Shown here: positions 22,835-29,024 of the stretch, in pieces | Position numbering within the stretch: the first letter of the stretch is position 1 | Layout of the letters: each line of letters opens with the position of its first letter | DNA from: Thermincola carboxydiphila | Lineage (GTDB): Bacteria > Bacillota > Thermincolia > Thermincolales > UBA2595 | DNA length: 64,000 nucleotides | Reading direction: 5' to 3' | Assembly: GCA_016841325.1 (NCBI GenBank) | Contig: JAENZJ010000006.1 | Span: 62,001 to 126,000, forward strand | Position numbers and translations under genes: made by a program | Notes under the pieces: model-generated | The model's input: only the letters and a program-made list of their open reading frames with translations | Told to the model about the DNA's origin: nothing | Database searches by the model: none

Positions 22835-23746
22835 TTGAAGAGGATTCGTAAGGCTATTATTCCGGCAGCCGGACTGGGGACCCGTTTTCTGCCGGCAACC
22901 AAAGCCCAGCCCAAGGAAATGCTGCCAATAGTTGATAAGCCCACAATTCAGTACATAGTGGAAGAAGCAGTGGACTCCGGAATTGAGGATATCCTGATCA
23001 TCACCGGACGCAGCAAGCGCGCCATAGAGGACCACTTTGACCACACCCTGGAGGTTGAGCTTCTGCTGGAACAGAAAGGAAATACCAGGCTGCTTAATCT
23101 GGTCCAGGATATTTCTGAGATGGTTGATATTCATTATGTCCGCCAGAAGACTCCGCGCGGTTTGGGGCATGCGGTGTATTGTGCCCGCAAGTTTATCGGA
23201 GACGAACCGTTTGCGGTCCTGCTGGGTGATGATGTAATTGTGAGTGAAAAGCCTTGTCTGAAACAGTTGATGGATGTTTATGAAGAAAAGGGTGGCAGTG
23301 TTCTCGGCGTACAAAGGGTAGCCCGAGAAGAAGTGAGCAAATACGGTATTGTCGACCCGGAAGGGGATGACACTTTACGGACAGTAAAGGTCCACAGCCT
23401 GGTAGAGAAACCTGCTGTAGAGACCTCTCCGTCTAATATTGCGGTCCTGGGCCGGTACATAATTGAGCCGGAGATATTTGACCTCCTGGAAAACACTGCT
23501 CCCGGAGCAGGTGGTGAGATTCAGCTTACAGATGCACTGAAGGTCATGGCAGGGCAAAAGCCGGTGTATGCCCATGTCTTTGCAGGCAGGCGTTACGATG
23601 TGGGTGATAAAATGGGTTTTCTGAAAGCGACTGTTGAATTTGCCCTGGCCCGGCCTGACCTGGGAGCGCCATTTGCGGCATACCTGAAAGAGCTTGTAGA
23701 GGGTAATGAATTTATGCAGGAGATTGCTGCCGGCAGTGGGAAGTAA
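22835..23746 (+). CDS. galU: UTP-glucose-1-phosphate uridylyltransferase
   Basis: The 303-residue protein matches GalU throughout: 'IIPAAGLGTRFLPATKAQPKEML' region at the N-terminus (nucleotide binding), 'PTIQYIVEEAVDSGI', 'LGHAVYCARKFIGDEPFAVLLGDD' and the 'VEKP' sugar-binding loop. It makes UDP-glucose from UTP and glucose-1-phosphate. TTG 22835 is chosen since GGGGGG lies eight bases upstream; an earlier in-frame TTG overlaps that run. Its length is normal. It has its own promoter and precedes the first c-di-GMP aptamer, so UDP-glucose supply and the c-di-GMP-controlled genes lie next to each other. Confidence 0.94.
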   Translation: MKRIRKAIIPAAGLGTRFLPATKAQPKEMLPIVDKPTIQYIVEEAVDSGIEDILIITGRSKRAIEDHFDHTLEVELLLEQKGNTRLLNLVQDISEMVDIHYVRQKTPRGLGHAVYCARKFIGDEPFAVLLGDDVIVSEKPCLKQLMDVYEEKGGSVLGVQRVAREEVSKYGIVDPEGDDTLRTVKVHSLVEKPAVETSPSNIAVLGRYIIEPEIFDLLENTAPGAGGEIQLTDALKVMAGQKPVYAHVFAGRRYDVGDKMGFLKATVEFALARPDLGAPFAAYLKELVEGNEFMQEIAAGSGK

Positions 23747-23799: not shown

Positions 23800-23828
23800 T
23801 TGCATCATTTATGATACAGGTGTATAAT
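23800..23828 (+). promoter_or_regulatory. Promoter of the tandem riboswitch transcript
   Basis: TTGCAT (23800-23805), a 17-bp spacer and a perfect TATAAT (23823-23828). The aptamer begins about 20 nt downstream. Confidence 0.7.
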
Positions 23829-23845
23829 GAAAATGAAAAAATTTA

Positions 23846-23939
23846 ACAACTCATTCTGATAAAGGCAAACTCATCGAGAGGTGGGGACGCAAAGCCACGG
23901 GTCTGGATGTATTCCAGATAGCCGGGTTACCGGGGAGTT
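23846..23939 (+). promoter_or_regulatory. Cyclic di-GMP-I (GEMM-I) riboswitch aptamer 1
   Basis: The conserved core is present: AAGGCAAAC, then the first hairpin closed by TCGAGA, GGGACGCAAAGCCAC, a second hairpin (TCTGG...CCAGA) and GCCGGGTTACCG. The base equal to G20 of the Vibrio Vc2 aptamer is G, as in c-di-GMP-specific members. AACTC upstream and GAGTT after the core can form P1. A terminator hairpin follows at 23965. Confidence 0.95.
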
Positions 23940-23964
23940 TTATTAGGCAGTTATTTGATTTACG

Positions 23965-23998
23965 GCCTGTTTCCGGAACCCGGAAACAGGCTTTAATT
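23965..23998 (+). terminator. Terminator after aptamer 1 (expression platform)
   Basis: A perfect 12-bp stem (GCCTGTTTCCGG with CCGGAAACAGGC) and TTTAATTATT. It lies between the two aptamers, so transcripts must pass it to reach aptamer 2 and the gene. Confidence 0.8.
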
Positions 23999-24067
23999 AT
24001 TGGTCAAGTTAATATTAACCAAAACTATCATTGGGAAATGAAGAGTTTTTCCGTTTAAGGAAATGCC

Positions 24068-24158
24068 GTCACTCCCGATAAAGGCAAACCCATCGAGAGG
24101 TGGGGACGCAAAGCCACGGGTCTGGATCTATTCCAGACAGCCGGGTTACCGAAGGAGG
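24068..24158 (+). promoter_or_regulatory. Cyclic di-GMP-I riboswitch aptamer 2, abutting the ribosome-binding site
   Basis: The aptamer is nearly identical to aptamer 1 in the core (AAGGCAAACCC, GGGACGCAAAGCCAC, TCTGG/CCAGA hairpin, GCCGGGTTACCG). The gene's AAGGAGG follows two bases after the core. CTCC at the 5' edge can pair with GGAG of this site as P1, so ligand binding would be expected to hide it. The sense of control is inference. Confidence 0.93.
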
Positions 24159-24166
24159 TTTTGGCC

Positions 24167-25033
24167 GTGAAAGATTTCAGGCTGTTTAGAAGGATTCTGA
24201 TAATCTTAACTGCTATTTTTCTGATTACTGTGATTGCTCCGGCTGCATATGCCGGTCAGGCAGATATCAGGTGGTTTACCCCATACACTGAAGGGAATTC
24301 AGTAACATTGTCTGAAGGTAACAGCTTTGATACATGGTTCAGTTTTCAGGGAACCGTTACCGAGAAGTATACCGGAATAATAGTCAGGGCTGTTCTTGGA
24401 AATGACGAGGCATATTATTATTATCCTGCAGTAGGCAATACGGTGGCAGGAGCTGTGTATCTGAGGTTTGGTGAAGGCAGCTACAGGGTGGACTTCAATC
24501 TGGTGAAACCCAATAACGGAAATCCCGGTGTAATTGCTTATGACTCGCTGGCCAGAGTTCAGGTTGAAAATACCGATAATGCTGACATGAGATATTTGCT
24601 TCCCTCATGGGGGATAGAAAGCAACAACCGTACTATAACTCAAAAAGCACGGCAGATAGTAGGACAGGCCTCAGATGATTATAGCAAAGCCAAAGCTATC
24701 TTTGACTGGGTCAGCAAAAATTTGGTTTATGACATGGACAAGTTCCGCCGTGGTGAGTTTTATGATAATGACGGCGCAGTAACGGCCCTGCAGACTAAAA
24801 AGGGGCTGTGCCGGGACTATGCCAATCTGGTTACCGCAATGTGCCGGGCTGAAGGGATAGAGGCCCGGACCGTCCTCGGAGAGGCCGGGACCGGGGGAAC
24901 CTGGTACGGACATGCCTGGAACGAGGTCCGGATTGGTGACAGGTGGGTCAGCATGGATGCTGTCTGGAAGGTATTTGACCAGGATACAGGAATTTTTGAA
25001 ACTACCCATAAAAAAACCCAGGAAGTCTATTAA
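24167..25033 (+). CDS. Secreted transglutaminase-like (cysteine protease fold) protein
   Basis: The 288-residue protein has a Sec signal peptide (ending near 'APAAYA'), an N-terminal beta domain (about 30-150) and a transglutaminase-like domain with the triad Cys215 ('KGLCRDYANL'), His249 ('YGHAWNEV') and Asp264 ('SMDAVW'). Such proteins act as peptidases, amidases or cross-linkers at the cell surface. GTG 24167 is eight bases after GGAGG; TTG 24161 is too close. It is the only gene directly behind the two serial c-di-GMP aptamers and ends in a terminator. Substrate unknown; a surface-protein role near the fibre and SLH genes is likely. Confidence 0.87.
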   Translation: MKDFRLFRRILIILTAIFLITVIAPAAYAGQADIRWFTPYTEGNSVTLSEGNSFDTWFSFQGTVTEKYTGIIVRAVLGNDEAYYYYPAVGNTVAGAVYLRFGEGSYRVDFNLVKPNNGNPGVIAYDSLARVQVENTDNADMRYLLPSWGIESNNRTITQKARQIVGQASDDYSKAKAIFDWVSKNLVYDMDKFRRGEFYDNDGAVTALQTKKGLCRDYANLVTAMCRAEGIEARTVLGEAGTGGTWYGHAWNEVRIGDRWVSMDAVWKVFDQDTGIFETTHKKTQEVY

Positions 25034-25311: not shown

Positions 25312-28300
25312 ATGAAGGTCAGGACTAAGAGGAGTCTGGCGGTTCTGGTGGGAATTGTGCTGCTGCTGACACAGATTGTTGGGATTATGCCTGCTCAGCC
25401 TGTCTATGCAGAGGAGACTGCAGGAAATATCCTCAACGTAGGCATCGAAGAGGACTATGGGACAATTCAGGATGCGGTCTACGCAGCACAGCCAGGTGAC
25501 ACAATTCTGGTTAGTGATGGTGATTATGAAGAGGCGGTTGATGTATACACCGAAGACCTCGTTATAAGGTCTGTAAACGGTGCTGTCTACACAGGTGTAT
25601 TTGGCGGTAGCGGCCACAGTTTTACTGTTTCCGCACCAGGGGTAGTTATCGAAGGCTTTACAATTACCTCAGACGGAGGAGCCGGGATATATGCAACTAC
25701 TGAAAGCGGTGGGCAGCTTGCGGTAGTCAATAATACAATCTGTGATAACTATGAAGAAGGTATTTATATTGAAGAGGCAAATGAAGCAGATATTGCGATA
25801 TATGGTAATAATATTTCTGGCAGTGACTCTGCAGCGATTAATATTGAAAGTGCCGGGAACAGTTCGATAGAAATCAGGGACAATATAGTTACCGGAAATT
25901 ACGGAGAAGCTGTGTATTTTGACTACTGTTATGACAGCACAGTTACAATAGCCAACAATAGTTTAAGTGAAAATGATTACTACGGTATTTATTTTTACGA
26001 TGTAAGCGCCACTGTACTGGACATAACAGACAATAATATTACTAACAACGATGATGATGGTATTTGTATCGAATATATCAATGATGACGATGATGAAACT
26101 CATTCCGGCGGAAGTACCGTGACAATCGAAGGCAACACTGTTGCATATAATGACTGTGAAGGCATATATATCGATGAGATGAATGATACCGGCCTAAGTA
26201 TAAATGATAACACCATTTATGGCAATTCCTGTGAAGGCATCTATCTGGATTACTTATATAATGGCAATATTGTGAACATCGAAGGTAATACCATTTATGG
26301 CCATGAGTGGGATGAAGGAATCTATGTTTATGAACTCGGATATGAGGCCGGGGACAGCAATGAACTAAATATATTAAACAACTATGTCGGAGTACCTCAG
26401 GGAGGCGATCCGGAGAGTGATGCCAACGAAGACGGGATATATGTATCTGATGTTGATTATGATGCAGAGGTTATTATTGAGGGCAATACCGTCACCGGAA
26501 ACACAGGGGATGGGATGATTTTGGAATACATGGGGACTGATGGTTATGAAATCTGGGATGATGCAACCAATACCATTGACCCTGAGTATGTGGCCCCAAG
26601 TGTTGTTGTCAGAAATAATATAATCACAGGTAACGATTCTGATGGTTTATACCAATATGATGACTGGATGTATGGAGCCAGTGTTGTTATTGAGGATAAT
26701 GTTATTTCGGATAATACAGAGTGTGGTATTTACCATGGTTATGATGACATCAGCCATGGTGCCGTGGTGATCGAGCGCAACAATGAAATAACCGGCAACG
26801 GATATGGCGGCATCTTCTGGGGTTCATGGAACTACATTTCTGATTATGCTGAATATACCATCACCGGGAACAACATTACCGGAAACAGTGATTACGGCAT
26901 ACTTATCAACGGGACTGATGAAGCATCTGTAGTTGAAATAGGACCAAACAATACGGTCTCAAATAATGAGGGCTTTGGAATTTGCCTTGAGGACGAGGTC
27001 ACCGGAGTCAGGGTCTGGGGCAATATCATTGAAGGGAATTACGAAGGCCTGGGTGTTGCCGGGTACAGCAATGAAATAACAGGCAACGAAATCCTGAGCA
27101 ACCTTTATGACGAATCCGGCATTCACCTGGATCCAGAAGCTGCCGGCAATACAATTAATCATAATGACATTGCAGGTAACGGTTCAGGGATTTCATCCGG
27201 CTCACTGGATGACATTATCGATGTCCCTGACCTTGAGGCGAGAAGTATTTTGCCCGAGGAAAAAGCAGAGACAACCTGTTCTCATAAGGAAGATACTGCC
27301 AAGAAAACTAAAGACACGGGTGACAGCCTGATTTCTATCAGGGATGTAAGCTCAAGGACTGATAGCGAGGAAGAACCCAATAACGCCACCCTTAACTGGT
27401 GGGGCAATTCGTCAGGCCCTACGGTAGAATCCAATGTTTATGGCAGTGGTGACAGTATTGTTGAAGGCATACCCTATAGCCCGTGGGCAGCGGCAGCATA
27501 CTTCCAGGAAGAGACAGTCGAGCTCAATCCTGGTGATTCTGTTGAACTGACATTATTTGCAAATACTATGGGAACTGCCGGTGAGACAGGGACGGTTGCT
27601 GTTCCTCCATATACAGTCCGCTACACCAGCAGTGATACCGGCGTTGCCACTGTTGCATCTGACGGAACCGTGAATGCAGTGGGGACAGGTTCGGCAGAGA
27701 TTACGGCCCATTTTGCAGGCGCTCCGACAATTGGCGTAATTGTTAATTCCCCTCCCGAAATAGTATCCACCACTCCTGAGGACGGTGCCTCCGGAGTAGC
27801 GGTAAATGGTCCTGTTGTATTTAACTTCAGTGAAAGTATTTTTGAGGGGCCCGGGATTGGGAGCATCTCAATCACCGCAGGTGAAACTGTTCTTAGCTAT
27901 ACCTATTTAATAGAAGACAATTCGCTTCAACTGATTCCGGAATCGAGACTGGCTTACAGGACACAGTACACTGTAGCCCTACCGGTTGACTCCATAACTG
28001 ACAGTAAGGGTCTTGGGCTGGATGAGGAATATTCCCTGACCTTTACCACCAGGTCAAGGCCTAGGAGCGGCAGCAGTTCCCGGGATACTGAAGACACTAT
28101 CGTGATTCCACCTATTGCCGGTCCGGTGAGCCCGTTTAGGGATGTCCCGGATGATCACTGGGCAGTTAATGAAGTGGTTTACCTCTATGAGAATCAAATC
28201 ATCAACGGTTTTAGTGGCAATATATTCATGCCTGACAGGTCAATAACCAGGGCCGAACTGGCTGCCATGCTGGCAAAAGCCCTCCGGTTAGACAGTGGTT

Positions 28301-28695
28301 CTGCATCTGCTGAGCAGCAGTTCTCAGATGTTTCCCGGGATCACTGGGCGTTCAGTGCAGTTGCTGCAGCTACCGAAGCCGGTTTAATGATTGGGTACAG
28401 CAGTGGAGAATTCCGCCCTGATGCCCCGATTGTCAGGGAAGAACTGGCACTTGTTATGATGAGGGCTTTATCCTATCCACAGGAAATTGCTGCCGGGACG
28501 ACAGAGAATCTTGATCGTTTCAATGATAAGTCACAGATCCCGGGGTGGTCCGCAGCAGCAATTTCGCAAGCCATTGAAACAGGACTGATCCAGGGCATTA
28601 GTGAAAACAGCTTCGGTGCCGGTATGTATGCAACAAGAGCCCAGGTAGCTGTAATGACCTACCGGATGCTCGGACAAAGGGCAGGAAACAGGTAA
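25312..28695 (+). CDS. Large SLH-anchored surface protein with a parallel beta-helix
   Basis: The 1127-residue protein has a Sec signal peptide (to about residue 33), then a long right-handed beta-helix region (about 40-650) built of NosD/pectate-lyase-type turns such as 'GIYIEEAN', 'NNTI', 'ITGNNITGN', rich in Asn, Asp and Glu and very acidic. A linker with 'ATLNWWGNSSGP' closes the helix. It is followed by a Big_2-like domain (about 725-815), a Big_5-type Ig domain (about 820-915; 'PEDGASGVAVNGPVVFNFSE') and three SLH domains at the C-terminus. Such proteins bind or cut polysaccharide at the S-layer; no catalytic residues could be assigned. ATG 25312 follows GGGAGG. Its promoter has a 0A box. 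Confidence 0.88.
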   Translation: MKVRTKRSLAVLVGIVLLLTQIVGIMPAQPVYAEETAGNILNVGIEEDYGTIQDAVYAAQPGDTILVSDGDYEEAVDVYTEDLVIRSVNGAVYTGVFGGSGHSFTVSAPGVVIEGFTITSDGGAGIYATTESGGQLAVVNNTICDNYEEGIYIEEANEADIAIYGNNISGSDSAAINIESAGNSSIEIRDNIVTGNYGEAVYFDYCYDSTVTIANNSLSENDYYGIYFYDVSATVLDITDNNITNNDDDGICIEYINDDDDETHSGGSTVTIEGNTVAYNDCEGIYIDEMNDTGLSINDNTIYGNSCEGIYLDYLYNGNIVNIEGNTIYGHEWDEGIYVYELGYEAGDSNELNILNNYVGVPQGGDPESDANEDGIYVSDVDYDAEVIIEGNTVTGNTGDGMILEYMGTDGYEIWDDATNTIDPEYVAPSVVVRNNIITGNDSDGLYQYDDWMYGASVVIEDNVISDNTECGIYHGYDDISHGAVVIERNNEITGNGYGGIFWGSWNYISDYAEYTITGNNITGNSDYGILINGTDEASVVEIGPNNTVSNNEGFGICLEDEVTGVRVWGNIIEGNYEGLGVAGYSNEITGNEILSNLYDESGIHLDPEAAGNTINHNDIAGNGSGISSGSLDDIIDVPDLEARSILPEEKAETTCSHKEDTAKKTKDTGDSLISIRDVSSRTDSEEEPNNATLNWWGNSSGPTVESNVYGSGDSIVEGIPYSPWAAAAYFQEETVELNPGDSVELTLFANTMGTAGETGTVAVPPYTVRYTSSDTGVATVASDGTVNAVGTGSAEITAHFAGAPTIGVIVNSPPEIVSTTPEDGASGVAVNGPVVFNFSESIFEGPGIGSISITAGETVLSYTYLIEDNSLQLIPESRLAYRTQYTVALPVDSITDSKGLGLDEEYSLTFTTRSRPRSGSSSRDTEDTIVIPPIAGPVSPFRDVPDDHWAVNEVVYLYENQIINGFSGNIFMPDRSITRAELAAMLAKALRLDSGSASAEQQFSDVSRDHWAFSAVAAATEAGLMIGYSSGEFRPDAPIVREELALVMMRALSYPQEIAAGTTENLDRFNDKSQIPGWSAAAISQAIETGLIQGISENSFGAGMYATRAQVAVMTYRMLGQRAGNR

Positions 28696-28865: not shown

Positions 28866-28958
28866 CATTATTCAGATAAGGGCAAACCCATCGAGAGGTG
28901 GGGGCGCAAAACCACGGGTCTGGGATAATACCCCTGACAGCCGGGTTACCGGAGAATA
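28866..28958 (+). promoter_or_regulatory. Cyclic di-GMP-I riboswitch aptamer 3 (variant core)
   Basis: The aptamer has AGGGCAAACCC, the TCGAGA hairpin, GGGGGCGCAAAACCAC and GCCGGGTTACCG. TATTC and GAATA form P1. Compared with aptamers 1 and 2, the conserved ACGCAAAG reads GCGCAAAA: two core changes (Vc2 positions 43 and 50). The ligand-contacting G20 and A47 equivalents are kept. Two hairpins follow before the glucan operon. Confidence 0.88.
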
Positions 28959-28989
28959 GCAGCGTGGTGGATTTTGGACGGCATTGTGA

Positions 28990-29024
28990 GCCTGTTCCCG
29001 TTAACCTGGGGACAGGCTTCTGTA
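28990..29024 (+). terminator. Hairpin terminator after aptamer 3
   Basis: GCCTGTTCCC pairs with GGGGACAGGC (one G-T pair), followed by TTCTGTAATTTT. It resembles the terminator after aptamer 1 and is the likely expression platform. Confidence 0.65.

Follow-up and report, generated by a model that had tools for sequence, protein, structure and literature searches.

A predicted bi-mechanism tandem c-di-GMP-I riboswitch upstream of a secreted transglutaminase-like enzyme gene in Thermincola

The window analysed here is a stretch of 64,000 nucleotides from the heat-loving bacterium Thermincola carboxydiphila (assembly GCA_016841325.1, contig JAENZJ010000006.1, positions 62,001 to 126,000); all coordinates below are window positions, and all features lie on the + strand. 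A 420-bp gap separates the end of a nucleotidyltransferase gene at 23746 from a gene that starts with GTG at 24167 and runs to 25033, and this gap holds two c-di-GMP class I (c-di-GMP-I) aptamers. The gene encodes an enzyme with a transglutaminase-like core (Transglut_core, COG1305 type; Pfam E value 7.2e-29) and a signal peptide, and the enzyme is thus predicted to be secreted. Its nearest solved structure is 3isr, comparison by eye showed that the Cys (GLC), His (GHAW), and Asp (MD or LD) are kept in the orthologs, and the GTG start is aligned with ATG in two relatives. The leader begins with a promoter at 23800-23828, made up of a -35 box TTGCAT (23800-23805), a 17-bp spacer, and a -10 box TATAAT (23823-23828), which places the RNA start at about 23835. 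The -35 box scores below the cut-off of a consensus scan; TTGC and a -10-like box are found at the same place and distance in all six orthologous leaders. Aptamer 1 (A1) occupies 23855-23935 and is followed by an intrinsic terminator stem-loop (23964-23992; -22.5 kcal/mol) with the loop AAC and a weak U-tract, UUAAUUAUUG (23993-24001), which is weak in all three Thermincola genomes. Between the terminator and the next aptamer lies a perfect 12-bp palindrome, GTTAATATTAAC (24008-24019), possibly an operator or a small hairpin. Aptamer 2 (A2) spans 24074-24154. The last base of its core P1 is 24151, directly before the Shine-Dalgarno sequence (SD) AAGGAGG (24152-24158), and the end of the Rfam model falls inside the SD, which is 8 nt from the GTG. 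An earlier note on this DNA had listed promoter, A1, terminator, A2, ribosome-binding site (RBS), and transglutaminase-like gene in this order, and Rfam, a terminator scan, and the sequence bear out every element. Its 12-bp terminator at 23965-23998 is present with 12 Watson-Crick pairs, and is amended by one additional G-U pair, the position, and the weakness of the U-tract; A2, described as ending two bases before AAGGAGG, in fact adjoins it.

The earlier note did not include a third c-di-GMP-I aptamer (A3), which Rfam places at 28872-28954, with a terminator next to it (28988-29020) and a DUF4912 gene downstream. A promoter-like -10 box belongs to A3 as well, and A3 shows an OFF-type complementarity to its terminator (p=0.024), and although it belongs to the same locus it is probably on a separate transcript from the enzyme gene. 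A gene for a large beta-helix/SLH surface protein (25312-28695) sits between the enzyme gene and A3, and SLH-domain proteins are encoded near the enzyme gene. In two other Thermincola genomes, G004 and G005, the counterpart of A3 follows about 200-250 bp past the enzyme gene, and the beta-helix/SLH gene is absent there.

The Rfam search of the window returned these three aptamers with E values of 2.7e-14 (A1), 5.9e-17 (A2), and 2.2e-14 (A3). A1 and A2, which are 91% identical and whose cores the earlier note had called almost identical, both pass the gathering scores of two models of clan CL00126, c-di-GMP-I (RF01051; 74.1 and 79.3 bits, threshold 35) and c-di-GMP-I-GGC (RF03167; 69.2 and 78.5 bits, threshold 59). 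RF03167 gave the best E values and RF01051 the higher bit scores. A3 likewise exceeds the RF03167 threshold. We rejected filing the aptamers under RF03167, because all three carry A at the position of the G in the GGC consensus and the RF01051 bit scores are higher; the G after GACGC (A47 equivalent) was taken as the GGC-defining residue from the consensus of the model. The 3',3'-cGAMP (c-AMP-GMP) class does not fit the window aptamers either, all three having G, not A, at position 20. Read from the cmscan alignment, the equivalents of G20, A47, and C92 (Vc2 aptamer numbering) are canonical in both leader aptamers, and c-di-GMP is therefore the expected ligand of A1 and A2. It is also a plausible one because the genome of the window (G000) encodes 16 GGDEF domains; the same genome has 16 c-di-GMP-I aptamers.

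We compared six orthologous leaders, that of the window (G000) and those of G003, G004, G005, G006, and G008. The layout of a terminator followed by an RBS is present in the three Thermincola genomes (the window's, G004, and G005) and in G003, which belongs to another genus, and the SD is retained in G003, G004, and G005. The leader of G008 combines two aptamers with two terminators, and that of G006 has A1 and its terminator, a remnant of a second aptamer with a second terminator, and then an assembly gap. Across the Thermincola species A1 matches A1 and A2 matches A2 (93-99%), and the doublet therefore predates these species. The two aptamers of one leader are identical in G008 and 93% identical in G003, which suggests that a duplication or conversion took place later in those lineages. 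In T. ferriacetica BL5_bin.1 (G005) a structured, dispersed repeat of 133 bp lies between the terminator and A2 (L018, C25:548249-548381), suggesting that the spacing of the gates is not critical. This repeat has nine near full-length copies with 88-94% identity in the genome of the window and matched no Rfam family at the gathering threshold.

The terminator starts 28 nt past A1, and according to folding calculations the two can coexist. The 3' strand of P3/P1 of A1 (CCGGGUUACCGG, 23922-23933), which includes the C92 position, can form 11 pairs with the terminator core (CCGGAACCCGG, 23973-23983), and the two would form the 5' and 3' strands of an antiterminator. For RNA extending to nt 23983 the antiterminator state is favored over the aptamer state by 5.3 kcal/mol at 37°C (-47.9 versus -42.6 kcal/mol) and by 4.3 kcal/mol at 55°C (-30.4 versus -26.1 kcal/mol). 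At full length and 37°C the terminator is about 8 kcal/mol better than the antiterminator, and read-through must therefore be kinetic. Compared with stem-shuffled hairpins, the complementarity between the aptamer 3' strand and the terminator core had p=0.006 in the window, 0.005-0.007 in Thermincola and for A1 of G008, and 0.02-0.11 in the other seven tested. It is kept despite sequence change, with UUAC facing CCGGAACCC in Thermincola, UUGC facing CGCAACCC in G008, and UUGC facing GUAGCCC, with wobbles, in G006. The Cd1 OFF switch of Clostridioides difficile works by the coexistence of aptamer and terminator, which compete with an antiterminator that uses an aptamer strand (PMC9262584), and the computed structures have this anatomy, with the 3' strand of A1 used by the antiterminator. 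Because aptamer and terminator can coexist, we read gate 1 as a Cd1-type OFF switch rather than an ON switch, its direction and switching step being predicted from folding. In the absence of ligand, synthesis of the apical half of the terminator would allow 23922-23933 to leave P3/P1 and pair with 23973-23983, resulting in read-through; with c-di-GMP, it would stay in A1 and the terminator would form.

In the free ensemble the strand AUUGGGA (24030-24036), which is invariant in the three Thermincola genomes, holds UCCCGAU (24073-24079), the 5' strand of A2 P1; this anti-P1 helix appears in the minimum-free-energy structure and in the partition function. When the aptamer is imposed, CUCC (24072-24075) pairs instead with GGAG (24154-24157) with a computed probability of 0.91-0.99, in agreement with the earlier suggestion that A2 may pair with the SD. 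The GGA of the SD is paired with a probability of 0.01-0.57 in free ensembles, depending on the stretch folded and the temperature and mostly below 0.3, versus 0.93-1.0 in the aptamer state. The last two G of the SD usually take part in a weak hairpin in the free ensemble, and the GTG start lies inside a small hairpin. The whole SD is rarely open: the probability of an open GGAGG is 0.004-0.04 at 37°C and 0.07-0.16 at 55°C in the free ensemble, versus 0.002-0.011 at 55°C with the aptamer imposed. The anti-P1 complementarity is modestly better than that of shuffled sequences (p=0.025). The P1-SD extension alone did not exceed shuffled flanks (p=0.12), and we dropped it as a stand-alone statistical argument. 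Formation of P1 costs 3-10 kcal/mol relative to the free ensemble, and the ligand would have to pay this cost. The nearest-neighbor energies used throughout leave out the tertiary contacts of the aptamer, and when the leader is folded whole, mispairing between its two halves is possible as well. P1-SD extension and anti-P1 strand occur together only in the RBS-type aptamers, those of the window, G004, G005, and G003, and in G003 a different anti-P1 strand comes from an arm of the terminator. No hairpin with a U-tract was found between A2 and the start codon. The folding model predicts that gate 2 is an OFF switch as well, again in direction and switching step. In read-through mRNA without ligand, AUUGGGA would hold the 5' strand of A2 P1 and leave the SD core largely open; with c-di-GMP, P1 of A2 would form and its CUCC-GGAG extension would cover the SD.

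Coupling of a c-di-GMP-I aptamer to an RBS is rare in the genomes searched. A2 is the only one of the 16 aptamers of the genome that directly precedes an SD and start codon belonging to a credible gene. A strict pattern (an aptamer 3' half followed by GGAGG within 12 nt) searched in 398 Bacillota genomes gave 17 matches, and only for A2 did a credible gene start at SD spacing; a different pattern yielded one candidate, with a single aptamer (L078). Most pattern matches are followed by terminators. The GGAGG pattern misses G003-G005, and its result is a lower bound that speaks for rarity, not absence.

The orthologous leaders also differ at position 20 of their aptamers. Both leader aptamers in G003 and in G008 and the one intact aptamer in G006 have A at this position (GAUAAUAGCAAACC), making leaders of the A20 type in three sister genera (L020, 1161-1394; L022, 1208-1455; L021, 882-961) compared with G20 in Thermincola. 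A20 is the residue associated with the recognition of c-AMP-GMP (PMC9481103), and the crystallization of a G20A class-I aptamer with 3',3'-cGAMP is cited in PMC6274999. Elsewhere in a scan of ten genomes of the bacterial class, the A20 pattern was confined to one aptamer per Thermincola, a single site in G002, and, in G005, three short copies. The sole A20-type aptamer found in the genome of the window (L010, 1501-1586; G000:C36:145238-145323) is conserved in G004 and G005; about 0.8 kb downstream of it lies a further aptamer, which precedes a small Flp-pilin-like gene. All five intact doublets have two aptamers alike at position 20. Such a match would be expected if both gates have to read one ligand; it could also stem from recent duplication. 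Our tentative suggestion, which we hold with rather less than even confidence, is that the two-gate leader of these orthologous genes was retuned as a whole, with G20 in both aptamers in Thermincola and A20 in both in two sister genera (and in the only intact aptamer of the third), both gates changing together and the second expression platform being an RBS or a terminator. If true, these leaders would form a natural series in which a serial riboswitch has changed its ligand and swapped its platform.

With two complete units in one leader and a terminator after the first, the locus has the anatomy of a tandem riboswitch, and the overlap of the A2 model with the SD together with the lack of a second terminator gives it the anatomy, as distinct from the activity, of a bi-mechanism system. 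We think that the leader is probably a bi-mechanism tandem riboswitch that senses c-di-GMP twice and is OFF at both gates. The analysis is computational throughout; it establishes the aptamers, the terminator, their order, conservation, and complementarity, and for the responses of the gates to ligand the folding calculations agree with two gates. The proposal of the earlier note that one ligand class is read at a transcriptional and then at a translational gate is thus supported by the aptamer matches, the anatomy, the folding, and the conserved layout, to which we add the predicted OFF/OFF direction and the strands that would switch. The note also expected sharper or two-threshold control. 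By calculation, two independent gates of equal affinity reduce the 90-10% range to 40-fold, versus 81-fold for one gate, and a tenfold difference in affinity gives 55-fold. Control would be sharper, but the gain is modest and the argument weak for independent gates; because of this modest narrowing, a lower leak and the silencing of messages already made are the more plausible benefit. We dropped the two-threshold reading because A1 and A2 do not differ in any pocket residue.

An alternative is that ligand switches gate 1 alone, and that A2 is a duplicate which is near the SD by accident or lowers translation constitutively. The P1-SD extension that is no better than shuffles, the strong anti-P1 helix that may keep P1 of A2 unformed at its cost of 3-10 kcal/mol, and the decay of the second aptamer of G006 to a remnant are all consistent with this. 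Yet A2 outscores A1 in Rfam, its orthologs are 95-99% identical in three genomes, and the exact junction of A2 and SD is kept in four genomes, including one of another genus, and we consider an idle second aptamer unlikely. The switches could also be ON, with c-di-GMP disrupting the terminator, exposing the RBS, or both. The triple-tandem Bc3-5 of Bacillus thuringiensis is such an ON switch, and so is the pilM switch of Geobacter (PMC4759541; PMC9262584). The terminators of those ON designs use aptamer strands, however, whereas the terminator here is made without them, lies 28 nt past A1, and coexists with it, and P1 of A2 covers the SD instead of freeing it. We rejected the ON model on the grounds that concern the terminator and regard it as improbable. 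Finally, A1 and the terminator could form a short stand-alone RNA while a second promoter feeds A2 and the gene. The 133-bp dispersed repeat that separates the units in G005, a -10-like TATATT before A2 in relatives, and the perfect palindrome GTTAATATTAAC could be taken in favor of two RNAs. The earlier note had named a strong promoter between 23998 and 24068 as the finding that would speak against a single RNA; a scan of this region for a + strand promoter-like hexamer pair found none, nor was one seen by eye in G004 or G005, and all six leaders keep the upstream promoter. A separate promoter for A2 was therefore rejected, and we consider the two-RNA arrangement very improbable.

In a leader that is OFF at both gates, the enzyme would be made at low c-di-GMP and repressed at high c-di-GMP. 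The same logic is known for C. difficile PPEP-1, a secreted protease acting at the surface that c-di-GMP represses through a class-I OFF switch (PMC11477304); PPEP-1 differs in being a metalloprotease, not transglutaminase-like, and in having a single aptamer. LapG belongs to a transglutaminase-like cysteine protease family and cleaves a surface adhesin (PMC3032545), and is described as active at low c-di-GMP, which resembles the logic proposed here. Surface-protein release as the function of the enzyme is a guess. Through the leader, a secreted transglutaminase-like enzyme of Thermincola would be tied to c-di-GMP, with a low-c-di-GMP-on logic similar to that of PPEP-1 and LapG; we found no paper centered on c-di-GMP signaling in Thermincola in the literature searched.

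Doublets of this class before COG1305 genes are already known. A 2025 survey reported tandem c-di-GMP-I riboswitches before COG1305 (yebA) genes in Bacillota, 94% of them doublets and 6% triplets, and discusses in general tandems that act at different levels (PMC12452182). The leader described here shares with them riboswitch class, doublet, gene family, phylum, and the terminator after the first aptamer; the main text of the survey gives no second platform for the COG1305 group (PMC12452182), which is an RBS here and a second terminator in G008. A 2022 catalogue files 347 c-di-GMP-I doublets as pseudo-cooperative and lists bi-mechanism systems for SAM classes only (PMC9481103), and an RBS as second gate for c-di-GMP-I, absent from that catalogue, would be new. 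Other leaders resemble it in part. Bc3-5 of B. thuringiensis likewise has serial, near-identical c-di-GMP-I units in one leader of surface-protein genes (PMC4759541) but has three terminators and is transcriptional throughout and ON. C. difficile Cd1 is likewise a transcriptional OFF switch with an antiterminator from the 3' strand of the aptamer, and differs by its single aptamer (PMC9262584). B. thuringiensis Bc1, another c-di-GMP-I leader, likewise affects both transcription and translation, with the difference that it has one aptamer and two terminators and is incoherent and hardly ligand-responsive (PMC11218506). The nearby genomes offer a ready comparison of an RBS second gate, a terminator second gate, and a decayed second aptamer, making the contribution of a translational second gate testable. 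There is also a parallel with the SAM-II/SAM-V and SAM-II/SAM-II bi-mechanism tandems, in which a terminator unit also comes first and an RBS unit second for one ligand (PMC9481103), and which differ in aptamer class and ligand. If both gates respond, the leader would extend to c-di-GMP-I, the class with the most tandem doublets, an order of terminator and then RBS that has until now been catalogued for SAM only.
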